Source: a virus
Length of the DNA: 25,182 nucleotides
IMG/VR virus record: IMGVR_UViG_3300023442_000025
Location: 1-25,182 of that record
Reading direction: 5' to 3' (one strand)
Position 1 is the first letter of the stretch. Each line of letters begins with the position of its first letter. Below the pieces are notes generated by a model. The model did no database searches. It had not been told where the DNA came from and was given only the letters and a program-made list of their open reading frames with translations. A program made the position numbers and the translations under genes. This document shows positions 6,852-21,343 of this stretch, piece after piece.

Positions 6852-6927
6852 TGGTGGCCCCAACAGGACTTGAACCTGTAATCATCCGATTATGAGTCGG
6901 CTGCATTAACAGTTATGCTATGAGGCC
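6852..6927 (-). tRNA. tRNA with anticodon CAU, most likely tRNA-Ile2 (reads AUA)
   Basis: The minus strand folds as a cloverleaf. The acceptor GGCCTCA pairs with TGGGGCC (one T-G wobble), the discriminator is A and CCA is encoded. The D stem is GCAT/ATGC and the anticodon loop CTCATAA carries CAT. The T arm is ACAGG-TTCAAGT-CCTGT. From memory, the acceptor GGCC...GGGGCCA and the C4-G69 pair match bacterial tRNA-Ile2 (ileX) rather than elongator tRNA-Met, which starts GGCTACG. Lysidine modification by host TilS would then make it read AUA. Oddities are a D loop without the usual GG and a mismatched first anticodon-stem pair. Elongator tRNA-Met is the alternative. Confidence 0.85.
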
Positions 6928-6940
6928 GGTGGTTTTCTAC

Positions 6941-7483
6941 TCAAATTTTAACAGCGTACTTCCCCGGCGCATACGAAACCGGGCCCATGTTTTTAGTTGC
7001 CGAGTTTAACGCATCAATGGCATTTAGCACCTCATCCGACAACTCCGTTTCCTCCGGCAGCTCATCGGAGAAGTAATCCTCATCCAAACGGATTAAGTAG
7101 ATTGGATCGCAGATAACTAGCTGCATTGCATCTGGTGATGTTTCGTAATATTTTGCATATTCCTCAACTTCATCCATCGAATTAAAATACTCATCGTGAT
7201 TTTTTGAGTACGCTGGGGTAGACTCGTCCCAATCCCGTGTTGGCATCTTTCTGTACTTCTTTTCCGACATAATTGATATACAGTCGTCGCAAAACAAGCG
7301 ATGTTTTATTGTGGGCTTTCCGCACTGTTTACACGGTTTGTGCGTGCAACCATAATATCTCGCTGCATCTTCATCGTCGCCAAAGAAGTTTCCTTTTCTA
7401 TCTACCCAGCCCTCGATGTTAGTGACGAACTTCGCATCTTCGCCAGAGTCGTACATTATAATGTCATTGCCTTTATCTTTCAT
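6941..7483 (-). CDS. Hypothetical acidic protein with Cys-pair motif
   Basis: About 180 residues, starting at the ATG that overlaps the SleB stop (ATGA) behind a strong GGAGGGG site. Upstream in-frame codons would lie inside the SleB gene. Residues about 48-68 carry CKQCG...FCDDC, a two-CxxC treble-clef or zinc-ribbon signature. The rest is strongly acidic (YFSDELPEETELSDEVL). It has no membrane segment. Such small zinc-ribbon proteins are common in phage accessory regions. The function is unknown. It is the last protein gene of the leftward transcription unit. Confidence 0.7.
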   Translation of the reverse strand: MKDKGNDIIMYDSGEDAKFVTNIEGWVDRKGNFFGDDEDAARYYGCTHKPCKQCGKPTIKHRLFCDDCISIMSEKKYRKMPTRDWDESTPAYSKNHDEYFNSMDEVEEYAKYYETSPDAMQLVICDPIYLIRLDEDYFSDELPEETELSDEVLNAIDALNSATKNMGPVSYAPGKYAVKI

Positions 7484-7860
7484 TCTCCCCTCCTCAGTCT
7501 GTAAAACAAATGATCCCCGATCCTGGCTACCAGCCTGTCGTGGCGTTTCCAATAGGCTCCACGTGATCCTGATGCGTGGTAATGCGTAGCGCCTCTGGTG
7601 GTGTCAGGGACGAGCTGGGCGGCCTTGGCTATGCGTAGGGCCTTGCCCCATGCCTGCGGGTCGTTGAACGTGCTGCGTGAGCCATCCAGTACAAATGAGA
7701 ACTGCCCGTCCTGATAGATCACATTACACGCGGTTGCCGGGTAGCGTGGGGACGCCATGCGGTTGAGGATTACATGGGCCACGGCGAACTGGCCTGCGGT
7801 TGGCTGGTTGCGGGATTCGTAGTAGATGGCTACTGCGAGGCATAGGGTTGTTATGGTCAT
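7480..7860 (-). CDS. SleB/CwlJ-type cell-wall hydrolase (Hydrolase_2)
   Basis: This 126-aa protein matches the SleB-like catalytic domain nearly end to end. It shows LAVAIYYESRNQPTAGQ with the candidate catalytic Glu at residue 15, then AVAHVILNRM, YPATACNVIY, QFSF and a C-terminal THYHA. The family cleaves peptidoglycan glycan strands, probably as lytic transglycosylases. No signal peptide precedes the domain. It is a second peptidoglycan enzyme besides the amidase at 5180-5710 and is on the opposite strand. It could be structural, late lytic, or cassette-derived cargo. Its first ~22 bp recur in the two 84-bp spacer repeats at 8240 and 10063. Confidence 0.8.
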   Translation of the reverse strand: MTITTLCLAVAIYYESRNQPTAGQFAVAHVILNRMASPRYPATACNVIYQDGQFSFVLDGSRSTFNDPQAWGKALRIAKAAQLVPDTTRGATHYHASGSRGAYWKRHDRLVARIGDHLFYRLRRGE

Positions 7861-7886: not shown

Positions 7887-8222
7887 TCAAAATACTCCTA
7901 CAAATTTACCGTTACACTTGTAAGAGCAAAAAGCGTATCTACCATCGAATTTAGCAACGGATTCATCTACTTCTTTTCCGCATTCTGCGCAAATACAGGT
8001 ACCATCAAACGGCTCATATTCTCCGATACGTGGTGCTGGGAATTGTTTGATTGTAGGGTCGATAATATTTCCATCACTATCAACAGCCCACCAGTGCGCC
8101 TGTTTTCCAATACTCCAACAGTGATAATACCCACGAACTGGCTTAAGGTCATGGTTGCTGGCGCATAATTTATCAACGTATTCTTTACATTTTCCTCTGT
8201 ATTTCACGTAGTCTGTTTGCAT
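7887..8222 (-). CDS. Hypothetical protein with C-terminal zinc-ribbon
   Basis: About 111 residues from ATG 8222, which follows an AAGGGGGG site. An in-frame GTG at 8261 would add a 13-residue leader (MTITTLYHRRGEY). The middle holds RGYYHCW, QAHWWAVDSDGNIIDPT and QFPAPRIGEYEPF, then CAECGKEV and FCSYKCNGKF as two Cys pairs. I recognise this arrangement as a recurring unnamed phage protein, but no function is known. It lies directly left of the first 84-bp spacer repeat, so it may belong to the cassette array. Confidence 0.7.
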   Translation of the reverse strand: MQTDYVKYRGKCKEYVDKLCASNHDLKPVRGYYHCWSIGKQAHWWAVDSDGNIIDPTIKQFPAPRIGEYEPFDGTCICAECGKEVDESVAKFDGRYAFCSYKCNGKFVGVF

Positions 8223-8239
8223 ATATTCCCCCCTTCTAT

Positions 8240-8323
8240 GGTATAGGGTTGTGATGGTCACAATGACCTTCTGAATTCATGCGGTACTTATACGGCACTT
8301 TGGGGTATAACCCGCTGTTATGC
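8240..8323. repeat. 84-bp spacer repeat, copy 1
   Basis: This copy matches 10063-10146 over its full 84 bp with about 16 differences by eye. It begins with a stretch shared with the SleB gene start (ATAGGGTTGTGATGGTCA) and has a central weak hairpin based on TATAC/GTATA. It ends in CCCGCTGTTATGC, whose last bases fit an integron GTTRRRY box. Read on the minus strand it links the TAA stop of 8318-8704 to the in-frame GTG leader of the next gene. It may be an attC variant without a good left box, fused to a translation leader. Confidence 0.6.
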
Positions 8324-8704
8324 GCCCTTAAACTTCGGCAGAACGCATGGGTTATCACAGGCTTTATCTAAACACTCAGCAAATGCTTTTGCTGCCTGTT
8401 CATAATTATCGCCAAGTCTTTCGCTGTTAAATTCTACCACTGTAAAGCCAATAGAAATTTTTATTGAGGAAAACCCGTTTGATGTTCTTGTTCGTGTGGC
8501 TTCGATATGTAAATCCATACCTGCTTTGTCCGTAAAAACATCTTCGGATTTAACCGCAATTGTCCTATGTAAAAAATCTTCCACTTTTTTCTCCCTATTC
8601 TCGCATAACAAATCATTAGAATCGGACGCACTTACCGCGGTGCATTTACACAACACAATCGGTTCTTTACATTTGTAGCAAAATTTAGTATCTGCTAAAT
8701 CCAT
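8318..8704 (-). CDS. Hypothetical protein with N-terminal Cys-rich motif
   Basis: A 128-residue protein opening with CYKCKEPIVLCKC, a compact CxxC...CxC zinc-binding motif at about residues 9-21. A mixed alpha/beta body follows (DLHIEATRTRT, SIKISIGFTVVEF) and then a helix with further cysteines near the end. The TAA stop lies inside the GTTATGC box of the 84-bp spacer repeat. Composition is AT-richer than the replication genes. The family and function are not recognised. Confidence 0.6.
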   Translation of the reverse strand: MDLADTKFCYKCKEPIVLCKCTAVSASDSNDLLCENREKKVEDFLHRTIAVKSEDVFTDKAGMDLHIEATRTRTSNGFSSIKISIGFTVVEFNSERLGDNYEQAAKAFAECLDKACDNPCVLPKFKGA

Positions 8705-8725
8705 CGTGCGCCCATCAATTCAAAC

Positions 8726-8732
8726 GTTATAT
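8726..8732. repeat. Possible truncated attC right box
   Basis: GTTATAT preceded by TCAATTCAAAC resembles the right half of a typical attC site, and on the minus strand it supplies the TAA stop of 8727-9032. No matching left half is found within 90 bp, and the gap to the next gene is only about 22 bases. It could be a deletion-scarred site or chance. Confidence 0.3.
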
Positions 8733-9032
8733 TGCGCTACCGCTGTACGTTGCTTTTAAACCAGTACAGCCTTCAACCTTACACTGCACATCTATTCCGC
8801 CGTTCATAGGTACCGCGATTTTATAGGTTACATCATACCAGTATTGACGGTATGGTTGTTGCCATGTGTATCTATCTCGCTCAATGATAATTTGGGCACT
8901 AGGCACGAATTTAGTACCAAATAAATCATGTAACTGATCATGCAGCTCTTTTGCTTCATCTAACGTGAGATCAACCTGTTTACCGTCTTTTGTTTCGAGT
9001 GTGATCTTTGTAAGTTTCAGTTTTTTGCTCAT
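8727..9032 (-). CDS. Hypothetical phage protein (101 aa)
   Basis: A basic N-terminus (MSKKLKLTKITLETKDGKQV) leads into the helix LTLDEAKELHDQLHDLFG, a pattern I have seen in small unnamed phage proteins. A Tyr/Trp-rich beta segment follows (YTWQQPYRQYWYDVTYKI). No catalytic motif or membrane segment is visible. The stop TAA overlaps a GTTATAT box. It starts about 20 bases left of the attC-like site at 9056, so it looks like the cargo of one cassette. The function is unknown. Confidence 0.6.
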   Translation of the reverse strand: MSKKLKLTKITLETKDGKQVDLTLDEAKELHDQLHDLFGTKFVPSAQIIIERDRYTWQQPYRQYWYDVTYKIAVPMNGGIDVQCKVEGCTGLKATYSGSAI

Positions 9033-9055
9033 ATTTCTGCCATCAATAATGCGCC

Positions 9056-9141
9056 ATATAATAAGGCGTTCCGCAGAGCGGTTAAAATTTCGCGCCTTGT
9101 TTTAAGTTGGTTCAGCCACCCGCTGAACTGAATCGTTATGT
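9056..9141. repeat. attC-like site (degenerate)
   Basis: About 86 bp. The left end ATATAATAAGGCG is a weak RYYYAAC box and the right end is a clean GTTATGT box. The outer arms pair imperfectly: left GTTC...AG.GCGG against right CCCGCTGAAC. There is also an inner perfect hairpin of GTTCAGC with GCTGAAC and a CGCGCCTTGTT partner to AATAAGGCG. Layout and end boxes follow the attC plan but the left box is poor. It lies exactly between two genes, and the stop of 9136-9429 is in its right box. Confidence 0.5.
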
Positions 9142-9429
9142 GTCTAAAACTTCCCATTTAGAATATAAATTTCTTGTAGCTTTACCAAAACTACCATCCT
9201 TCTTCTCTATCCTTCCCGTAATCCAAGGCTTGCCTCTATGAGATCTCTCTGCTCTAACACTGTCTACTATCGCCTTCCTTCCGTCGCTTAAAACGACAAT
9301 TGCACCGATAAAAACGCCATAATCTTCCTTATGTTTTTTCAGCCAAAAATCTCTTATTTTCTGCTCAATATTGCTCAATACTTTTCTAGCTTCAAGTTCT
9401 TCTTTTTCTAAAATGTCTATATCTTTCAT
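9136..9429 (-). CDS. Hypothetical cassette protein (97 aa)
   Basis: The N-terminal half is a charged coiled coil (EKEELEARKVLSNIEQKI). The C-terminal half looks like a small beta barrel (YGVFIGAIVVLSDGRKAIV, KPWITGRIEKKDGSFG) and may be SH3-like. The TAA stop is inside the right box of the attC-like site at 9135-9141, and the ATG lies about 17 bases from the left box of the next attC. This one-gene-per-interval layout is typical of integron cassettes. The product is not recognised. Confidence 0.6.
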   Translation of the reverse strand: MKDIDILEKEELEARKVLSNIEQKIRDFWLKKHKEDYGVFIGAIVVLSDGRKAIVDSVRAERSHRGKPWITGRIEKKDGSFGKATRNLYSKWEVLDT

Positions 9430-9445
9430 ATTTCACCTCAAAAAC

Positions 9446-9505
9446 ACATAACAAGTGCATTAACTCGGACTCGCTAACGCTCGCCGGTTATGTTGGTCGT
9501 TATAT
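9446..9505. repeat. attC site (integron-type recombination site)
   Basis: A 60-bp imperfect palindrome. The left box is ACATAAC and the right box GTTATAT. Left arm CAT-T-AAC-T-CGG pairs with right arm CCGGTTATG, leaving two unpaired T residues on the left arm. This is the extrahelical-base pattern by which IntI recognises folded attC DNA. The AACAA following the left box is the classical top-strand orientation, so the site reads left to right while the flanking genes read right to left. Confidence 0.75.
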
Positions 9506-9760
9506 TCTAAAAACTGGCTGTATTCTTTCAATACATGTCGGGACGGCTTTTCCGTCACGCACATCATATGTCACCCTAAATACAGAATCCCTCACAAAAT
9601 TCCAAACGTCTTGTGGTATGCTTTCTTTTATTTCTTTATTAAAATCTGAATTTATCATGGTTAAATCATGACCATTAAATCCAAATATGTCGTTTATCCC
9701 ATCAAACCCTAAATATTCGCCGCTAACAGCATGAGAGTGTAAAAAACATTCGATATACAT
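9500..9760 (-). CDS. Hypothetical cassette protein (86 aa)
   Basis: The start ATG 9760 follows a strong TGGAGG site; codons further upstream to 9805 run into the neighbouring attC half-site and are unlikely. The 86 residues begin MYIECFLHSHAVSGEYLGFD and contain DVWNFVRDSVFRVTYDVRDG with no cysteine clusters or membrane helix. The TAA stop overlaps the right box of the attC at 9446-9505. There is no recognisable family. The flanking sites mark it as a gene-cassette cargo. Confidence 0.65.
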   Translation of the reverse strand: MYIECFLHSHAVSGEYLGFDGINDIFGFNGHDLTMINSDFNKEIKESIPQDVWNFVRDSVFRVTYDVRDGKAVPTCIERIQPVFRI

Positions 9761-9774
9761 TTTTAACCTCCAAA

Positions 9775-9815
9775 ATATAACAAACGAGTCAATGCGAATG
9801 CCCAATGCGCTGCCG
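9775..9815. repeat. attC left half-site (partial)
   Basis: ATATAAC followed by AAACGAGTCAATGCG closely resembles the left arm of other attC sites, including the one at 11177. No right arm with a GTTRRRY box is found within the next 100 bases; instead the 3' end of the broken ASCH-like gene occupies that space. It is interpreted as an attC lost in part by deletion or fusion. Confidence 0.45.
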
Positions 9816-10048
9816 CTTAAATTTCCAAATTCGACCCTTCAATCTGGCATGTTTACCATAGCCTTTCGAGATCACAACTTCGCGCCCAGGTTTGCAGGTT
9901 TCTTTATCCCAGCGTGGGCCATAAAGGCGTAGTTCTTCGTGCTTGCTGCAAACGCCTCAAAATATTCAGTTTTCAGCGGCATAAAAAGAGGTTTCATAAA
10001 TGACGCTTGGCTATTCTTACCGCCTGATACTGGTACCAGAACCTTCAT
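9789..10048 (-). pseudogene. Broken chimera: PP-loop remnant fused to frameshifted ASCH-like gene
   Basis: From ATG 10048 (AGGAG upstream), the first 17 codons read MKVLVPVSGGKNSQASF. This is the start of a PP-loop ATPase (PAPS-reductase-like), with Asn replacing the usual Asp of SGGKDS. They run straight into a second gene start at 9997, MKPLFMPLKTEYFEAFAA, the N-terminus of an ASCH-like phage protein. Near 9940-9946 the frame breaks: the annotated frame ends as nonsense at 9872. Another minus-strand frame continues as KHEELRLYGPRW, then CKPGREVVISKGYGKHARLK, to a TGA at 9789-9791. A small deletion in the segment that should read like AAGTKHEE would explain it. The 3' end is also short and abuts the attC half-site. 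An in-frame GTG leader begins at 10084. Confidence 0.65.
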
Positions 10049-10062
10049 TTCATCTCTCCTTT

Positions 10063-10146
10063 GGCATAGGGTTGTGAGGGGCACGATGACCTCCTAAATT
10101 CCTTTGGTACTTATACCCCAAAGTGGGGTATAGCCCGCTGTTAGGC
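10063..10146. repeat. 84-bp spacer repeat, copy 2
   Basis: The same length and plan as 8240-8323. It starts GGCATAGGGTTGTGA and has a perfect TATACCCC/GGGGTATA hairpin with a 5-base loop. It ends CCCGCTGTTAGGC, a good GTTRRRY box. On the minus strand it carries the stop of 10141-10473 and then AGGAGG with GTG 10084, opening a leader MPLTTLCQRRDE in frame with the following gene. It is probably a divergent or damaged attC site plus a 5' translation leader. Confidence 0.6.
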
Positions 10147-10473
10147 GCTACCAGTGGCCAGCCAATACCTAAAGTGAACACTGGTGATTTCCTCGCCACA
10201 TTCTCCATAGTCTCCAATGTAAACAGAGGTGTATTCTTGCATAGTATATTCTCCGCCTTTCCATCCAGTAAATGTTGCACCGAGTGCTGACTTAGCGTGT
10301 TCCAGCATATCTCCAATTCTGGCTTCTTTTTCTGGTGTGAAAGCTAGTTCATCATAGCTTCCGCGGTCGCTATGAGGTGTGCTGAACCCGTCTTTAACAA
10401 CGAGTTCTTGATCTTGCTTCTCAAGCCATTCAATCAATTTTCCAAGTGTCATATTACCCATCATTTTCTTCAC
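10141..10473 (-). CDS. Conserved phage hypothetical protein (110 aa)
   Basis: The start ATG 10473 follows GGGGAG. It contains MTLGKLIEWLEKQDQELVV, SDRGSYDELAF, GATFTGWKGGEYTM and VYIGDYGECGEEI. I recognise this order of motifs from an unnamed family widespread in tailed phages. It is small, soluble and acidic, with no catalytic signature. The TAA stop falls in the GTTAGGC end of the 84-bp spacer and the start is directly beside the attC at 10481-10552, giving a one-gene cassette. The function is unknown. Confidence 0.7.
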   Translation of the reverse strand: MKKMMGNMTLGKLIEWLEKQDQELVVKDGFSTPHSDRGSYDELAFTPEKEARIGDMLEHAKSALGATFTGWKGGEYTMQEYTSVYIGDYGECGEEITSVHFRYWLATGSA

Positions 10474-10480
10474 TCCCCGC

Positions 10481-10552
10481 GCCTAACAAGGCGCTCCAGT
10501 TTACGCTCAATACGCTGCGCTTCTTTCGCGCAACTGAGCTATGTCGTTAGCC
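10481..10552. repeat. attC site (integron-type recombination site)
   Basis: 72 bp, left box GCCTAAC and right box GTTAGCC. Left arm GCTC-C-AGTT pairs with right arm AACTGAGC, leaving one extrahelical C. The stem continues into GCG pairs around a variable loop (CTGCGC TTCTTT CGCGC). This is the best textbook-like attC in the window. The classical orientation is left to right. The right box supplies the stop codon of the next leftward gene. Confidence 0.8.
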
Positions 10553-10765
10553 TGCACTGACACCTCGTGCCTGCATCCTAGACCGTAGGGCGCGCTTGCT
10601 CAGGGCGATGTGCGCCATGATGCTGCACTCCACGTACTCTGGCACATTAAGCCTGCCGTTTTTCCAGCTCGACCAGTTCCCTTTATTAAATCCCATTAGG
10701 GCTGGGCATTTAGTGGAATTGAGGCCGAGCTTTTCCTCGGCCTCTTCGATCAAATTAACGCTCAC
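10547..10765 (-). CDS. Putative HTH-like phage protein
   Basis: About 72 residues from GTG 10765, which overlaps the upstream gene's stop. An ATG further upstream at 10798 is possible but lies deep inside the neighbour. LIEEAEEKLGLNSTKCPALM then GFNKGNWSSWKNGRLNVPEY reads like a helix-turn-helix of the kind found in small phage regulators (G...NWSSWKNGR...PEY). It ends in a basic helix (LSKRALRSRMQARG). Its TAA stop overlaps the attC right box. Regulatory function is a guess from the motif shape. Confidence 0.55.
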   Translation of the reverse strand: MSVNLIEEAEEKLGLNSTKCPALMGFNKGNWSSWKNGRLNVPEYVECSIMAHIALSKRALRSRMQARGVSAG

Positions 10766-11039
10766 AGTCAAACTCAATATCCACATGGTCATTAGCAACC
10801 ATATTGTTTACATCGGCTGAGTCAGCGCCTTTGGTTTTCGTTAGGTTTTCAATGTCACCCCAATCGCCGTTCATCGCATTTGTTACTGCCTCAATAAACT
10901 CGTTGTAATCGCAAACCACATCAATCCCTTCGTAGGTTTCGTCCAGATCCTCATTGGCGCACCATGAGTAATCTGAACCGCTGTAGTAACATTTGCAGTT
11001 ATTCAGGTGGCTGGTAGCTTTGATGAATTCGTTTAACAT
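10755..11039 (-). CDS. Hypothetical acidic cassette protein (94 aa)
   Basis: Begins MLNEFIKATSHLNNCKCYYS and is strongly acidic throughout (NEDLDETYEGIDVVCDYNEF). It has three cysteines but no clear metal motif. It is the first gene behind the strong promoter at 11093-11121 and is followed in overlap by the HTH-like gene; the two share one cassette interval between attC sites 10481 and 11177. It could be an anti-restriction-style DNA mimic by charge, but there is no family evidence. Confidence 0.55.
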   Translation of the reverse strand: MLNEFIKATSHLNNCKCYYSGSDYSWCANEDLDETYEGIDVVCDYNEFIEAVTNAMNGDWGDIENLTKTKGADSADVNNMVANDHVDIEFDCER

Positions 11040-11092
11040 TTTCTATCCTTTTTGTTTTATCGGTCTCGGCCAATTCCTCAACCGTTAAAGAT

Positions 11093-11121
11093 ATTATAGT
11101 TTTATATTAAAACTAATGCAA
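11093..11121 (-). promoter_or_regulatory. Sigma-70-type promoter, leftward, inside the cassette array
   Basis: On the minus strand, TTGCAT (11116-11121) and a perfect TATAAT (11093-11098) are separated by 17 bases. Transcription would start near 11086 and read leftward into 10755-11039 and the rest of the array. It lies in the 197-bp AT-rich gap 11040-11236, which otherwise holds only the attC site at its right end. Confidence 0.7.
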
Positions 11122-11176
11122 GGGCTTATTTCGCAATATTAAATCTTTTTTTGCCGCAGTTATCCGAGCAGGTGCA

Positions 11177-11242
11177 GGCTAACAAACGCATCAACACGGA
11201 CGGCGCAAAAAGACGCGTCTCCGGTTATGCTGGTCGTTATAA
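11177..11242. repeat. attC site (integron-type recombination site)
   Basis: 66 bp, left box GGCTAAC and right box GTTATAA. Left arm GCAT-C-AAC-A-CGGA pairs with right arm TCCGGTTATGC, leaving an extrahelical C and A. These are the same two base identities as in the top strand of aadA-type attC sites. The right box contains the stop codon of 11237-11533. It is the array's boundary with the replication operon. Confidence 0.8.
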
Positions 11243-11533
11243 ATCAATAAAATTTCTTGCTAATTCTTCAGCTCTTTCCAAACTAATTCCGGGTTCATTG
11301 TGAGAAACCATCCGCAATAGTTCAGAGATAGAGTCACATGGCAATTTCTCCTTGCTTAAGCTTCGCGCATCACACAATGCATCAAAACGTCCTTCAAAGT
11401 AACTTGCTAAGATAATAGCTTCTTCTTTGGTTTTATTTCTGTTTCGTAGTGCTATAGTATCCATTGCAGTATTTTGCCACATACGCCATTTTTGACTAGC
11501 TTCGCTGATCAAACTGGTTAATGATTTATTCAT
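11237..11533 (-). CDS. Hypothetical helical protein (98 aa)
   Basis: All-helical prediction (LTSLISEASQKWRMWQNTAM, KTKEEAIILASYFEGRFDAL, ISLERAEELARNFIDL). No membrane segment or cysteine motif is present. The ATG overlaps the upstream stop (ATGA), so it is translationally coupled to 11530-11955. Its own stop sits in the attC right box at 11236-11242. The family is not recognised. It is either the last gene of the replication-side operon or the first cassette gene. Confidence 0.6.
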   Translation of the reverse strand: MNKSLTSLISEASQKWRMWQNTAMDTIALRNRNKTKEEAIILASYFEGRFDALCDARSLSKEKLPCDSISELLRMVSHNEPGISLERAEELARNFIDL

Positions 11534-11955
11534 AGCTCACCATTCTCCTTGATGTAGTCAGATAGAAGGATGCAGTTGTTCCAAGATAAATATCCGTTAA
11601 CACCCTCAAAAACAACCGCTAGTCCATTGACATCTATGTGTGAAAACAACCTTGGGTATTTTACCTTTTTATCCCAAACCACCACCGGGTCATACTTTTT
11701 GATGTGGTCGTAGGGTTTGATGCGGATGATGTCTAGTCTGTGTGTACCTTTTTTGTTATGTAAATACCTCCCATTGGCGGAAATTGCTATGAGAAAATCT
11801 CCCTTATCACTGAGCACTATAGCTAATGCAGTGTTGGGGCTGTAGTCGGCAGCATTCATTGTCATAATCACAGCAGGCCATTGATCACTACCGTCAGGAT
11901 TCCCGCGGGTACGGAAAATACCTTCTTTGTACAAATCGTCTTTTGTGATTTTCAT
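11530..11955 (-). CDS. Hypothetical protein (141 aa)
   Basis: The start ATG 11955 overlaps the pentapeptide-gene stop (ATGA). Residues near the N-terminus (MKITKDDLYKEGIFRTRG) are followed by alternating beta strands (NTALAIVLSDKGDFLIAISA, FSHIDVNGLAVVFEG). There are no catalytic or metal motifs and no signal peptide. Composition is AT-rich like its neighbours. It is coupled at both ends to adjacent genes. The function is unknown. Confidence 0.6.
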   Translation of the reverse strand: MKITKDDLYKEGIFRTRGNPDGSDQWPAVIMTMNAADYSPNTALAIVLSDKGDFLIAISANGRYLHNKKGTHRLDIIRIKPYDHIKKYDPVVVWDKKVKYPRLFSHIDVNGLAVVFEGVNGYLSWNNCILLSDYIKENGEL

Positions 11956-12605
11956 TTTATGCTCTCCTGCGCTTTTACAGCTCCAATACCTGCAACGATT
12001 AGAGGCTTGTGGATTTTCCACCAGCTTAAGGCGCCCTTATCCATCGCAGCTATTTCTACGTCAGTAAATGAAAGCCACTCCTTGTGTGTATGGTATTTAC
12101 AGCCAATCCTGACATGCTCTTTTGATATGTACGCAGTCCATATTGGTAATGAAAGTACAACAAGTCCAGCATCATTCAAATTAGCCCTACTCAAATTAGC
12201 CCCAATCAAATTAGCCCTACTAAAATCAGCCCCACTCAAATCAGCCCCACTCAAATCAGCCCAAATCAAATTAGCCCCACTCAAATCAGCCCCACTCAAA
12301 TCAGCCCCACTCAAATCAGCCCCACTCAAATCAGCCCTACTCAAATCAGCCCCACTCAAATCAGCCCTACTCAAATCAGCCCTACTAAAATCAGCCCCAC
12401 TCAAATTAGCCCGGATCAAATCAGCCCCACTCAAATCAGCCTCGCTCAAATCAGCCCCACTCAAATCAGCCCTACTCAAATCAACTTTATTTTTTAAGGC
12501 CCATTCAACTGCAAGACGGATATTTGTAGCCTTAGTCCCACTATCTTTTATTCCTGCTGTAAATTGAACTTTGCCAGTAAATCTATTTTTGATTTCAAAT
12601 TTCAT
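11952..12605 (-). CDS. Pentapeptide-repeat protein
   Basis: This 217-aa protein has an N-terminal cap (MKFEIKNRFTGKVQFTA..., VEWALKNKV), about 20 uninterrupted A(D/N)LSx pentapeptides (residues ~42-145) and a C-terminal domain with HVRIGCKYHTHKEWLSF. Pentapeptides form a right-handed quadrilateral beta helix. Some family members (Qnr, MfpA) mimic DNA and bind gyrase. The same cap and tail occur, as I recall, in many phage pentapeptide proteins of unknown role. The repeat codons are nearly identical at DNA level, so copy number can change in frame. The function here is unproven. Confidence 0.85.
   Translation of the reverse strand: MKFEIKNRFTGKVQFTAGIKDSGTKATNIRLAVEWALKNKVDLSRADLSGADLSEADLSGADLIRANLSGADFSRADLSRADLSGADLSRADLSGADLSGADLSGADLSGANLIWADLSGADLSGADFSRANLIGANLSRANLNDAGLVVLSLPIWTAYISKEHVRIGCKYHTHKEWLSFTDVEIAAMDKGALSWWKIHKPLIVAGIGAVKAQESIK
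12172..12492. repeat. 15-bp tandem repeat in pentapeptide gene
   Basis: Roughly twenty 15-bp units of the form CTCAAATCAGCCCCA with small variants (CTACTCAAATTAG and similar). The unit is a multiple of three, so gain or loss keeps frame. It is coding, not a CRISPR array: there are no unique spacers. Confidence 0.85.
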
Positions 12606-13134: not shown

Positions 13135-13486
13135 CGTGGTTCTCCTTAATATGTTTTTCTAAAATCAACCCAAGGTGGTGGACAACGCTGTTGACCATTC
13201 TGCCTGTTCCGTCCGGTATTACATATGACCCGCCGGGATGGAAGGTGTTTTTCATATCCCTTATGATCTCCTCCACCGGCACACCTGCAGATAGCTGTCG
13301 GCTCCACGATGTCATTAGTGCCGTTACCCACTGGAACGATCTCATTTCCTTGCTGTTCAGGAAGAAGGACAACGGTTCTGGGCAACCAACAATAGTGAAG
13401 TATCCAGAGTGGTCGCTGACCCCGGGCGACTTAAACTTGTACGTGGTGCTCGGGCTCACGCCGTGGTGTAGTAGCTGGTCGTCCAC
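13127..13486 (-). CDS. TSCPD-domain protein (ribonucleotide reductase C-terminal-like)
   Basis: 119 residues; GTG 13486 follows a GAGGAGGAG site inside the upstream gene, while a GTG at 13459 would give a 4-base overlap without a ribosome site. The body matches the TSCPD domain appended to B12-dependent ribonucleotide reductases and found alone in phages: YFTIVGCPEPLSFFLNSKEM, WVTALMTSWSRQLSAG, then GSYVIPDGTGRMVNSVVHHL. It may assist nucleotide metabolism during replication. No reductase catalytic subunit lies in this window. Confidence 0.65.
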   Translation of the reverse strand: MDDQLLHHGVSPSTTYKFKSPGVSDHSGYFTIVGCPEPLSFFLNSKEMRSFQWVTALMTSWSRQLSAGVPVEEIIRDMKNTFHPGGSYVIPDGTGRMVNSVVHHLGLILEKHIKENHDD

Positions 13487-14040
13487 TGCGGCTCCTCCTC
13501 GGTACCAGATACTTCGTATTCCACCAACAGATCCAACATGGCCTCTACGATTTCCCTGTCGTTTTTAATCTTTTCCAGTGTCAAATTTATTTTGTCTTGC
13601 TTACTGTCCAGTACGCCAGACAGGATCTCGTCTTTGCCTTGCCGCTTTATACGACTACGATGGCGGGCCAAGGATTTCTGCGCCTTGGCTATCTTGCGCT
13701 CTACTGAAGCCATGCTGTCCTGTTGTTGTGAAATATGCGCCCGGCAATAGGCGACGATGTCTACAACGTCCGCGTCCACGGCCCCATCCATCATTATTGC
13801 CAGCGCCGATACTGCCGGGTTACCCTGATTGGCAGAGGCTCCGTCAACACGACCAGTCTTGTCATAGGTCTCCCGGGACTCCGTATTGGATAGAACGGTA
13901 TGCGCCATCTTCAGCGCCTTAAATTCCTCCTCCGTACCGCCTCTGTCAGGGTGTTTCTTCATAGCCGCCTTGCGGTAGGCTGCGTCTATCTGGTCTTTGG
14001 TGGCGTCTCGCGCCACACCCAGCTCGTCATAAAGGCTCAT
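13456..14040 (-). CDS. J-domain (DnaJ-like) protein
   Basis: A 194-aa protein with a canonical N-terminal J domain, YDELGVARDATKDQIDAAYR, the HPD motif at residues 30-32 and a final helix (EFKALKMAHTVLSNTESRE). The rest is coiled coil with basic patches. J domains stimulate Hsp70 (DnaK) ATPase. Phages could use this to recruit host DnaK to the replication complex. The gene overlaps the DNA polymerase stop by 4 bases (ATGA), supporting a replication link. No zinc-finger or client-binding domain of full DnaJ is present. Confidence 0.85.
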   Translation of the reverse strand: MSLYDELGVARDATKDQIDAAYRKAAMKKHPDRGGTEEEFKALKMAHTVLSNTESRETYDKTGRVDGASANQGNPAVSALAIMMDGAVDADVVDIVAYCRAHISQQQDSMASVERKIAKAQKSLARHRSRIKRQGKDEILSGVLDSKQDKINLTLEKIKNDREIVEAMLDLLVEYEVSGTEEEPQWTTSYYTTA

Positions 14041-16996: not shown

Positions 16997-17928
16997 TAAA
17001 ACAACCCGCCATCTTGTAAAATGAATGGAAACGCCGGCATATCACAGAGGTCTTTGAAGTACTGTATATTCCATAGATCCCGCTTCCAGTATATGGAGCG
17101 AAGCTCCTCTACATCAAACCCTTTATCCTCTATTTGTTGCCGAACAATGTCTTGCTCTATTGGCGCCAAAGTATCGTAGTGCATTCCAATCCATTTCTTC
17201 TTTGGGGACTGGTCTGACATAGTAAGCTTCGTCTCTCGACCATTGCCGAGGTCCCAGTAGATGCCGCCAAACATGGCGGTCATCACCCAAGATGTCGAAT
17301 CGACGGAGTACCATGGATACCGCTTCATTAGGTCAAGAGCCGTCAGACCAAAACCATGTACCTTTACTATTGGGAATCCTTTTTGGTCCGTCAGATACTC
17401 TTCCCATATGTAATCCAGCCATTGCCGTAAATCGCTGGTCGATATAGGCACCATGCCACCAAGGGTGATGTGATCATAGTTTTCCAAGTAGTACTGTAGA
17501 TACTTTGGGTCCTCTCCATAATGAAAGCATGGTAGAACTTCTACCCCTAAATCCTCTAATTTTTTTTGATTGGTCAGAGTTAATTCAGGATCACCGATAC
17601 CATCCAGAACAGAAGCGACTTCTATGATATCGCCACTATCTTTTATATAGGCAGCATACTCCCGCAAATCTAGTTCTATTCCTTTGGTGAACATTGAAAA
17701 AGCCCCAGAATCTAGAAATATTTTTTTCCCAGTATCCCTGATTACTGACAGTGTTTTATTCTTTCCGCCGATATAATGATACGATTCAAGGGAATATGGA
17801 TAATCCATTAAGAGGGAGTATTCTTTTTCCGTCATTTCTGTTGGACGATTTGAATATAAGAAAAGCCTCCCGGAAAAGGTTCCAGCTAGATGGATGCGAA
17901 GTACTGTTTCTTTCCAATCTGTAATCAT
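16996..17928 (-). CDS. dpdA: DpdA-like DNA 7-deazaguanine transglycosylase
   Basis: A 310-aa protein of the tRNA-guanine transglycosylase-like fold found in phages. Visible signatures are FLDSGAFSMF (D73), ITLGGMVPIS (~154-163), VKVHGFGLT (H191) and YSVDSTSW (D210). The two aspartates sit where TGT enzymes have their catalytic acids. DpdA exchanges guanine in DNA for preQ0 or a derivative. The adjacent preQ0 synthesis genes argue strongly for DNA rather than tRNA as the target. It is coupled to the PRT-FolE gene (ATGA) and to the clamp (TAATG). Known phage homologues give resistance to host restriction. Confidence 0.85.
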   Translation of the reverse strand: MITDWKETVLRIHLAGTFSGRLFLYSNRPTEMTEKEYSLLMDYPYSLESYHYIGGKNKTLSVIRDTGKKIFLDSGAFSMFTKGIELDLREYAAYIKDSGDIIEVASVLDGIGDPELTLTNQKKLEDLGVEVLPCFHYGEDPKYLQYYLENYDHITLGGMVPISTSDLRQWLDYIWEEYLTDQKGFPIVKVHGFGLTALDLMKRYPWYSVDSTSWVMTAMFGGIYWDLGNGRETKLTMSDQSPKKKWIGMHYDTLAPIEQDIVRQQIEDKGFDVEELRSIYWKRDLWNIQYFKDLCDMPAFPFILQDGGLF

Positions 17929-18815
17929 TTAATGAGCTCTACGAACTCAGCGCGAGCCTCTGGCTTTTCCTTCATGGCACCCCTCATCGCGCTGGTGATG
18001 GTACTGCTGCCTTGCCGCTGGATTCCGCGAGCCTCCATACACATGTGGCGGCAGCTAACAGTAACGGCGACGCCGATGGGCTTAAGGTGTTCTTCCATCG
18101 CGTCCGCGATCTGGTTTGTCAGTCTTTCCTGTACCTGTAGTCGTCTCGCAAAAACATCCACCAAGCGGCTGAGTTTACTAAGACCAACAATCCGGCCATC
18201 AGGGATGTAACCAATATGGGCCACGCCGAAAAAAGGAGCAAGGTGATGCTCGCAGTGGGAATAAACAGGAATATCACGAACGATAACCATTTCATCGCAT
18301 TTCTCCGCGCCGTCCTCGAACACCTTAAGTATATCGCCGGGGCTTTGCGTATATCCGCTGGCGTAATGCTCCCACGCCTTCAGGAACCGTTTTGGCGTTT
18401 CCACCAGCCCGCCGCGGGCCGGGTCTTCCCCTATGAACTGCAACAGCCTTGTTGGGATATCCGTGGCGCTGGAATCTTGGTCCTTGTTACCCTCCCACGG
18501 AAATACTAGCCATTGCCCATCGGCTTGGAATAACGCGTGGAACGGTATACCGTACTCGTCGTGTCGATCTTTTGTTGCGCCACTGTCGATGATATCGTCG
18601 ATGATATAGTGCGCTGCTTCCGGCGAGTCCACTACCTCGCAACGGATAGCGGCTCGGAGTTCCCCAGCCACCGCGTACGCCGCTGGGATACCTCCGCGTG
18701 GAACGCCGTATAGCATTACCGGCGAAGCGGGGTCGTCCGCTAGAATATTCGCCGCGACGTTCCTTGCCCGCTCCTTGATATGGTACTGTTTCAGGTATTT
18801 TTTATTCATTCTCAT
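17925..18815 (-). CDS. folE: Phosphoribosyltransferase-GTP cyclohydrolase I fusion
   Basis: 296 residues from ATG 18815 (ATG 18809 also possible), overlapping the queC stop. Residues 1-108 form a PRTase domain: [12 protein letters not shown] (35-46) and the PRPP-binding loop [11 protein letters not shown] (71-81), ending WLVFPWE. Residues ~117-296 are GTP cyclohydrolase [17 protein letters not shown] (129-144), SHCEHH (zinc C188 and H191) and [11 protein letters not shown] (C259 zinc). FolE makes 7,8-dihydroneopterin triphosphate, the first step to preQ0. The PRTase is unusual here. It could supply or recycle nucleotide or salvage a 7-deazaguanine base, which is inference. Confidence 0.9.
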
Positions 18816-19467
18816 ACTCCGTGGTGTCCTCAATTCCGGCATAAGCCATCGCCTCTATCCGCTCCTGACACGCTCCACATTTTCCGCACGCCTTTTCCCG
18901 GCCGTTGTAGCATGTCCACGCCCGGCGGTAATCCAGACCTAGTTCTTTGCCGCGAACCGCGATGTCGCCCTTTGTCATATTGATGTACGGAGCTTCCACT
19001 TGTATCGGGTCATAGTTGGCAATCCGGGCCACGTTACTGATGGCGTCTACGAAGGCCGGTCGGCAATCCGGGTAGATCGCATGGTCACCTGAATGCGCTC
19101 CGAACAGGACGGTATCGGCTCCAATATTTACGGCGTATCCAATCGCCAGCGATAGCATAATCATGTTGCGATTAGGTACCACGGTGAGCCGCATGGTCTC
19201 GTCTTCGTAGTGCCCCTCTGGTACGTCGATGTCGCCGGTTTGGGAGGAGTTACCGAGTAACTGATTACCGATAGCCGATACATCCACGACTACGTGCTCA
19301 ATCCCTTCGTCCGCACAACCGGCTTTAGCGTACCCCAGCTCTTTGCGGTGCCGCTGCCCGTAGTCAAACGATATCGCGCAGACCTCGTGTCCCGCAGCTA
19401 CGTACTCCATCAGCAGGGTATAACTGTCCATCCCGCCGGAATATACTACAACTATTTTACGGCTCAT
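18802..19467 (-). CDS. queC: 7-cyano-7-deazaguanine synthase QueC
   Basis: 221 residues, the normal QueC length. N-terminal PP-loop [13 protein letters not shown], central [16 protein letters not shown] and [15 protein letters not shown], and a C-terminal zinc site [18 protein letters not shown]. It converts 7-carboxy-7-deazaguanine to preQ0 with ATP and ammonia. No N- or C-terminal glutamine amidotransferase (Gat) domain is attached, unlike Gat-QueC of archaeosine-making phages. Its ATG shares one base with the queE stop (TAATG). The assignment is very sure. Confidence 0.95.
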
Positions 19468-20165
19468 TATTCCACTCCTAAGATCTTATGTGTTTGTAAG
19501 GAAATACGGTATCCACGCTGGATGGCGATGTCTATACACAGATTCATATTCTGCCTGTTCAGGGCGGCGTCCTGCTCGTCCATTGGCTGGATCCAGATAG
19601 TGTGCGCTGTGCTCGGTTCCGGACGGGCGATTTTACGGCCGGTGTCCAACAGCGGTAGCCGGTCGTGCTTATCCAGCATCGTTGACGAGGCGGATATGAT
19701 GTACTTGTAATGGTGTACATTGTTCAGGATATCGCGGTTCAGCTTCCCCGTTTTTGGGCTGGTAACGACATCTACATCATTCCACGGAAAATTCGGTATG
19801 GACACCGTTCCGGCCGTTTCGATCTGTACAGTGAATCCGAGATCCTTTGTCAAAGCGTTTACTAAAGGAATGATGTTCTGGGTAAATGGCTCGCCGCCGG
19901 TAATAACAACAAGGTTCACCCAATGGGCCGTAGTGTGCGCACTTTTAACTAGGCCGACAAGTTCCTCCAGCTCATACAGTTCCCGGACGGATTCAAAATC
20001 CGTGTCGCAGAAAGAGCACTGGAGGTTACAGCCGGATAGCCGGATGAAGATGGCCGGGGTTCCCGCGTGCGGTCCTTCCCCTTGGATCGTCACGAACACC
20101 TCGGAAACATACAGCGCACCGTCGTCTCTTAGCTGTTGCTTTCTTACTGGGTTATTTCCAAACAT
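19467..20165 (-). CDS. queE: 7-carboxy-7-deazaguanine synthase QueE
   Basis: About 232 residues from ATG 20165, which overlaps the upstream stop by 14 bases; further upstream codons lie in the neighbour. It has the radical-SAM signature [14 protein letters not shown] (CX3CX2C), [12 protein letters not shown] before it, VITGGEPF and VQIETAGT. It rearranges 6-carboxytetrahydropterin to 7-carboxy-7-deazaguanine. The C-terminal half has the usual DVVTSPKTG and YKYIISA elements. It is part of the preQ0 set. Confidence 0.95.
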
Positions 20166-20394
20166 TGGCGGGTACCCTGTTGATCTTACGGCGGATGGAT
20201 CGGAGGTGATTTTCAAACTGCTCCTCGACACTCATATTTCGGTGGCGTACAATTCCGCCGGGGCCAATCTTGAACGTGGTGACGGTGCCGTCTGCCCGTC
20301 GATTGGTGATAACGGTTCGGCTATCGTGTGGGCCGGCGGATACTGCCGCGAGCAGTTGTGCCTTGTTATGTACCTCTAGGACGTTTTCCATCAT
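20152..20394 (-). CDS. Hypothetical protein between queD and queE
   Basis: About 80 residues from ATG 20394 or 20391 (ATGATG overlapping the queD stop). Sequence features are VHNKAQLLAAVSAGP, NRRADGTVTTFKIGPGGIVR and a basic C-terminus ([16 protein letters not shown]). A small beta-rich, positively charged protein, possibly nucleic-acid binding. It is overlapped on both sides by pathway genes, so co-translation with preQ0 synthesis is likely. No known Que or Dpd family is recognised, and an auxiliary role is only inferred. Confidence 0.65.
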   Translation of the reverse strand: MMENVLEVHNKAQLLAAVSAGPHDSRTVITNRRADGTVTTFKIGPGGIVRHRNMSVEEQFENHLRSIRRKINRVPANVWK

Positions 20395-20822
20395 GCCCTC
20401 CATTCCGCAAAGCTGGTCGCCGTTTCCCAGACCTTAACGCTGGTGATTGTTATTTGGGTGGATGGCGCGAAGTAACTCTGTATTTCAGTACCCGCGAACT
20501 TGGCGAAGCTCTCCGCGGTTGGGTTCTCAGGCCAGATATGTACCCGCTGGACTGCCCCGTTGGTAGCCTCCATGTCTGCGATCAAGGCCACAGCCGGGTC
20601 GTCCTCCGCCAACACCATCGAGTGATCCAAGGGGTCCAGCACTAGGTTCATAATCTTCTTCAGATCCTTGAAATCAACCACCATGCCGTTGCTAGACATC
20701 TCCGGCGCGGTGGCGGTGACCTCCCACAGGTAGCTATGGCCGTGGAGGTGGCTACACCGCCCGTCGTAATGGTTTAGGCGGTGGCCGGTTTCCGTTCGTA
20801 GCTGCTTGGTTATGGTGATCAA
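20391..20822 (-). CDS. queD: 6-carboxytetrahydropterin synthase QueD
   Basis: About 143 residues. I chose TTG 20822 because GGAGG lies 8 bases upstream and it overlaps the preceding stop; the longer reading from 20888 lies inside that gene. Motifs are TGHRLNHYDGRCSHLHGHSY (zinc histidines and active-site Cys), DFKDLKKI, LDPLDHSMVL and ENPTAESFAKF. It converts dihydroneopterin triphosphate to 6-carboxytetrahydropterin. Length and motifs are normal for the family. Confidence 0.92.
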   Translation of the reverse strand: MITITKQLRTETGHRLNHYDGRCSHLHGHSYLWEVTATAPEMSSNGMVVDFKDLKKIMNLVLDPLDHSMVLAEDDPAVALIADMEATNGAVQRVHIWPENPTAESFAKFAGTEIQSYFAPSTQITITSVKVWETATSFAEWRA

Positions 20823-21316
20823 TTGGTTTTCCTCCACAGGTAGGATTGTCTGGTAGCTGTAAGCTTGTTGATGCCGTTGGTAACGCATGCTTGGATGTAA
20901 TCCTTCGGTGCGGCGTTTTTATTGTTGCGGCGCACTGCCCGACAAATCCCGGCGATCTTATCCTTGATTGTCATATTTGCGATTGCCTCTCTCTTTCTGG
21001 CCTCCGATATCCCCTCCCCGGAGACCTTTTTCTTTGCAACCTTTTTCTTTGCGACCTTTTTCTTTGCGACCTTTTTCTTTGCGACCTTTTTCTTTGCGAC
21101 CTTTTTCTTTGCAGACACGATACTTTCTCCTTTGAGTAGTTTAGTTATTTGGGGGTCGGTGAGTACCTCGTCCCGCCGCCCGTCTTTGAAAACAAGCACC
21201 CCGCTGAGGGTTTCCTTGCTTTTTCTTAACAGGAACGTATGCTCTGATCCGCTGGAATGGGCTTTGTACCCTATCCCCTTGTACGCCTCGATCCTATCTT
21301 CTGGTGTAGTTGACAT
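20819..21316 (-). CDS. Lys-rich AKKKV-repeat protein
   Basis: About 165 residues from ATG 21316 (AGGA upstream; ATG 21337 would add seven). An N-terminal alpha/beta domain (DRIEAYKGIGYKAHSSGSEH, TFLLRKSKETLSGVLVFKDG) is joined to a C-terminal helical domain (TIKDKIAGICRAVRRNNKN). The linker is six AKKKV pentads. The linker resembles histone H1/HU-type basic tails and should bind DNA nonspecifically. It is immediately upstream of queD with a 4-base overlap, so it may bring DNA to the modification or replication machinery. Function not established. Confidence 0.65.
   Translation of the reverse strand: MSTTPEDRIEAYKGIGYKAHSSGSEHTFLLRKSKETLSGVLVFKDGRRDEVLTDPQITKLLKGESIVSAKKKVAKKKVAKKKVAKKKVAKKKVAKKKVSGEGISEARKREAIANMTIKDKIAGICRAVRRNNKNAAPKDYIQACVTNGINKLTATRQSYLWRKTN
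21026..21115. repeat. 15-bp tandem repeat encoding AKKKV linker
   Basis: Six units of CTTTTTCTTTGCGAC (plus strand); the four central ones are identical and the outer ones differ by one or two bases. It is in frame (15 = 5 codons) and prone to slippage. Not a CRISPR: the units abut. Confidence 0.85.
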
Positions 21317-21343
21317 CGCTGGTATCCTGTATCGCATTATAAA

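Follow-up and report, generated by a model that had tools for sequence, protein, structure and literature searches.

The 84-bp sequence that occurs twice in a viral contig of 25,182 bases (the window, the whole stretch of DNA analysed here) is probably the phage-backbone half of an attI-like site, judging from its sequence and its position at the edge of an integron-type cassette array. The array spans 8317-11242, with its attC sites on the plus strand. Relative to bacterial integrons, the cassette genes are reversed in the window and in many other phage contigs, an arrangement that is apparently unreported. The components of the array and its flanks are listed in Table 1.

Table 1 Features of the cassette array and its flanks in the window.
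Feature	Positions	Strand	Remarks
SleB-type cell wall hydrolase	7480-7860	-	PF07486, E 2e-25
SleB-type gene start	7839-7860	-	homologous to first 22 bp of the two copies (19/22 and 18/22)
Gene A	7887-8261	-	leader (GTG) supplied by copy 1; ATG at 8222 preceded by its own ribosome site
84-bp copy 1	8240-8323	-	right end is the attI-like core; also carries a ribosome site, a GTG start and a match to first 22 bases of SleB-type gene; right-end box GTTATGC 8317-8323
attI-like core, copy 1	8305-8323	+	GTATAAC-CCGCT-GTTATGC; inverted 7-mers, 5-bp spacer
Cassette gene 1	8318-8584	-	88 aa from GTG; ORF to 8704; TAA stop from copy 1 box
attC a	8603-8732	+ (top strand)	long, 130 bp
Cassette gene 2	8727-9032	-	stop in R' box of attC a
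attC b	9056-9141	+	degenerate R'' (ATATAAT); by sequence inspection, weak half-site alignment
Cassette gene 3	9136-9429	-	stop in R' box of attC b
attC c	9446-9505	+	
Cassette gene 4	9500-9760	-	stop in R' box of attC c
Half attC (attC d)	9775-9806	+	ATATAACAAACGAGTCAATGCG...; without L' and R'; by sequence inspection
Broken gene remnant after copy 2	9790-10049	-	starts MKVLVPVSGGKNSQAS; PP-loop-like, frame lost
84-bp copy 2	10063-10146	-	layout as copy 1; box GTTAGGC 10140-10146
attI-like core, copy 2	10128-10146	+	GTATAGC-CCGCT-GTTAGGC
Cassette gene 5	10141-10473	-	TAA stop from copy 2 box
attC e	10481-10552	+	
Cassette 6	10547-11039	-	overlapping ORFs 10547-10798 and 10755-11039; first stops in R' of attC e
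attC f	11177-11242	+	bottom strand folds with canonical extrahelical G and T
Right-edge gene	11237-11533	-	ends within R' of attC f; no further attC found to its right

The window holds at least two clustered attC sites, the number expected of a CALIN: a, c, e and f, together with two weak members, the degenerate b and the half site d. Sites c, e and f display the canonical architecture, in which R'' pairs with R' and L'' with L', with extra bases on the 5' half of the plus strand, and the folded bottom strand of f has the canonical extrahelical bases. No close relatives of these attC sites were found in plasmids and genome contigs. Seven minus-strand genes between 8318 and 11533 take their TAA stop from the complement of the TTA in a GTTA box, and among the listed ORFs of at least 75 aa between 7480 and 16043 none outside the array ends in such a box. 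Each array gene has its ribosome site and start left of R'' and stops within the R' box. The order in bacterial cassettes is gene first and R'' second, and all seven array genes (7/7) are reversed with respect to it. The right-edge gene probably belonged to the phage originally, upstream of the insertion site.

The two 84-bp copies agree at 68 of 84 positions in an ungapped alignment (E 9e-21), well above the best 36-42 of 84 obtained with dinucleotide-block shuffles, which bears out the preliminary description of two same-length copies about 80% identical. The homology ends at the GTTATGC/GTTAGGC box, because the flanks to its right are only 30% identical over the next 10 bases; the cassettes that start there are unrelated to each other. 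That description had also suspected a GTTRRRY-like box and a link with integron cassettes, and each copy indeed terminates in an R box that borders an array of attC cassettes. As in an attI site, the GTTRRRY box at the array start is accompanied by an inverted L box, with six of seven positions inverted in copy 1 and a weaker four of seven in copy 2.

Related cores mark array edges in other IMG/VR loci (designated L plus a number): GTATAGT-CCACT-GTTATAT at L077 and L115, which represent the same edge, and GTCTAAT-ACACT-GTTAGGC at L079. The strict core RYNTARY-NCRCT-GTTA was found in 1.33 Mb of loci only in the two window copies, L079 and L077, every match having a reversed stop within the box, and across 50 whole viral records the motif occurs only in L077 and L079. 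The clean case is L077, where a phage operon is followed by the core, a reversed Dam methyltransferase cassette, an attC, a reversed cassette and another attC. Starting from the L077 and L079 flanks, no empty site was found in phages. The string CTGTTA is present at five of six non-attC edges (both window edges, L077, L079 and L029, not L095) versus none of 116 attC sites; at the L029 edge CTGTTA is not accompanied by a clear inverted L box, and the L095 edge lacks both. The core motif was noticed post hoc, after few edges, and the p value of 3e-8 for CTGTTA is descriptive only, because the edges are few and also served to define the motif. A Vibrio prophage integron edge (L136, between 28054 and 28340) reads GTATAG-ATAGC-GTTAGGT, near the phage core with a spacing one base shorter.

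When the array is read leftward, the copies occupy the position expected of an attC but lack R''. They might be attC remnants deprived of their R''-L'' half: an R' box with an L'-like arm closes each copy, and the array also contains the opposite kind of half attC, site d. We consider this improbable, however, since the arms of the copies do not fit site d, an identical truncation would be needed in two diverged copies, CT does not precede GTTA in any of the 116 phage attC sites, and the array edges of L077 and L079 carry the same core.

The preliminary description had suggested that the 84 bp might be a mobile expression module, in which a terminal box, hairpin, ribosome site and leader peptide would move as one unit and drive the next gene. 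The two copies are built alike, and in both of them an in-frame GTG leader is followed by a second ribosome site, as such a module would predict. These leaders, MTITTLYHRRGE and MPLTTLCQRRDE, begin with GTG and are in frame with the next ATG, as had been claimed; within the proposed consensus M(T/P)(I/L)TTL(Y/C)xRRxE, the RRxE part results from in-frame reading of the ribosome site that serves the internal ATG. The reported match of the first ~22 bp to the start of the SleB gene was reproduced as well (Table 1). SleB homologues commonly have a (V/L)C(L/M)A-type start, and for this reason MTITTL(Y/C) is read as a cut-off SleB N terminus; the leader is best read as the truncated start of the adjacent SleB-type gene, of which it keeps the first 22 bases. 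None of the SleB homologues in IMG/VR (32-44% identical) shares the 5' region. The next gene assumed for each copy exists after copy 1, where it is gene A, whose homology to Rhizobium phage proteins starts at residue 17, past the leader; copy 2 is followed by a broken remnant. This remnant was compared with the PAPS reductase of L029 as a possible relative, and no alignment was obtained.

The hairpin proposed for each copy is strong only in copy 2, where TATACCCC-ACTTT-GGGGTATA forms a perfect stem-loop on the minus strand; it is broken in copy 1, and neither copy clearly beats its shuffles. The hairpin loop is inverted between the copies (8289-8310 versus 10111-10132, 91% complementary), as if flipped during replication. 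The BLASTN check for other copies that had been suggested, run on phages and plasmids, returned nothing useful, nor did three viral pattern scans in IMG/VR and one genome scan, and no promoter match lies inside the 84 bp. With no other copies, no promoter, an unconserved hairpin, a SleB-like leader and gene A homologues that begin after that leader, the 84 bp appear to be the fixed side of an insertion site and are probably not a self-contained mobile expression module, a reading we hold to be unlikely. A repeated intergenic regulatory element, comparable to the promoter-early-stem-loop of T4-type phages and spread by homologous recombination with the cassettes coincidental, would suit the intergenic position and the stem-loop of copy 2 ahead of the ribosome site, but it is very unlikely, as the combination of a promoter with an intergenic stem-loop is missing (the stem being intact in copy 2 alone) and the homology of both copies stops at the recombination box.

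If the copies are the backbone half of an attI-like site, the original order on the minus strand would have been the gene at 11533-11237 with its R-box TAA, the 84 bp with ribosome site and start codon, and then the SleB-type gene. Cassettes would have been inserted between the G and the TTA of the box by an integron integrase, which was probably supplied by the host because none was found in the phage record. The polarity of the array is normal for an integron, the attI-like core coming first and the attC top strands after it; since the cassette genes are all reversed, the array would be read as part of the phage operon, from end to end and then past the core. Neither an empty site nor a close relative of this phage was found. 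The 81% identity between the edges suggests that arrays of two related phages recombined, and the two diverged copies probably arose by such recombination between array edges, which would account both for the half site at 9775 and for the broken gene that follows copy 2. Gene A and the broken gene would then follow cut-off SleB starts, although the sequence of events that led to gene A is a guess.

The record is an IMG/VR contig with phage replication genes. Its DNA polymerase is about 50% identical to Pseudomonas and Stenotrophomonas phage enzymes, and the 84-bp region is absent from both cultured DNA-polymerase relatives whose region was read. Neither an integron integrase nor any other tyrosine recombinase was detected in the record (TIGR02249, PF00589), 25 kb that are probably a fragment. 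On this probable fragment the array is a CALIN, having no integrase nearby, and it lacks the intI beside attI of a complete integron. The integron-integrase cut-off was passed by none of 50 records, and 11 array-bearing records contained no tyrosine recombinase. Elsewhere in the window, a tRNA-Met(cat) (6852-6927) lies at the convergent junction of the late operon and the cassette-bearing operon, a pentapeptide-repeat protein (11952-12605) is built from 15-bp DNA repeats, and a phage DnaJ-domain protein (13456-14040) adjoins the DNA polymerase. Queuosine/deazaguanine genes (17925-20888; GTP cyclohydrolase I, QueC, radical SAM, PTPS) have counterparts in related Pseudomonas phages and probably serve DNA modification, and a lysine-rich histone H1-like protein with 15-bp repeats (20819-21337) falls below the Pfam cut-off.

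The orientation of cassette genes was assessed with an oriented detector, for which plasmid R100, a multi-cassette plasmid and a Vibrio prophage integron served as bacterial-type control arrays. All 11 control sites were forward and none reversed (0/11), and the aadA1 attC of R100 was detected in the correct orientation. Scanning IMG/VR for the attC pattern only, with genes ignored, gave 89 stretches. Decisive sites in these attC loci were reversed in 44 cases versus forward in 6 at a score of at least 38; for starts with a ribosome site at the same threshold the counts were 34 versus 3. By locus, 25 were reversed versus 4 forward (p 1e-4), and 32 versus 7 at score 36, while random TAAC/GTTA pairs in the same contigs gave 108 versus 96. 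L079 alone has 11 attC sites with reversed genes, and phage genes were found in L079, L029, L077, L095 and L047. The oriented detector misses some published sites, because P12002L and MW202573 gave no convincing attC with a gene call. A simple attC pairing scan without orientation was rejected as too noisy.

Cassettes in other phage arrays encode Dam (L077:679-1167), Mom (L033:2138-2755), MT-A70 (L029:10692-11246), PAPS reductase (L029:7209-7991) and a Mom-like protein (L079:6811-7230). It is conceivable, and we put it tentatively, that lytic phages have a system of their own, in which attI-like cores of the form RYNTARY-NCRCT-GTTARRY and reverse-coding cassettes rich in DNA modification genes are swapped between unrelated phages via a host integrase. 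If so, the reversal aligns the cassette genes with phage transcription, and in view of the Dam, Mom, MT-A70 and PAPS reductase genes the system could serve to exchange counter-defence genes. A gene-exchange system separate from the bacterial pool would follow if reversed coding and a shared core were the rule in lytic phages. The model suggests testable explanations for the entry point of cassettes into phages and for the loss of the bacterial reading direction. Phage cassette clusters are known from about twenty phages and have been described as typical or mixed arrays. Such clusters with functional attC sites have already been published; the literature searched, whose coverage excludes many journals and preprints, contained no report of reversed coding or of a shared phage attI-like core.

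The closest known systems are the CALINs of lytic phages, which consist of attC arrays with small genes and DNA methyltransferase cargo and have no integrase (Qi et al. 2023, PMC9892861). Some of their attC sites recombine with attI1, and the arrays of phages TJE1 and PH101 are described as typical in layout (PMC9892861). The window resembles these CALINs in its attC array, small genes and lack of an integrase, but the window and most tested IMG/VR loci are reversed, and an attI-like edge core is not described there. With attI1, attI2 and the Vibrio attI, the window core shares the GTTRRRY box, an inverted arm a few bases to its left, the position at the array start and the polarity towards attC. 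In contrast to the integron attI, it has no adjoining integrase, has an NCRCT spacer and lies before a phage cell-wall-hydrolase gene. Delta-attI cassettes likewise place an attI-type site within an array, in their case short attI1 or attI2 pieces in place of attC (PMC12901181), whereas here the entire 84-bp edge recurs, about 20% diverged. Finally, attG sites, as outlined for Loot et al. 2024 in two later articles (PMC11389934, PMC12444791), are genomic sites other than attI and attC that accept cassettes, and the window core is a candidate for a site of that kind; in those outlines attG insertion is scattered, whereas the phage core motif recurs at the array edges of unrelated phages.
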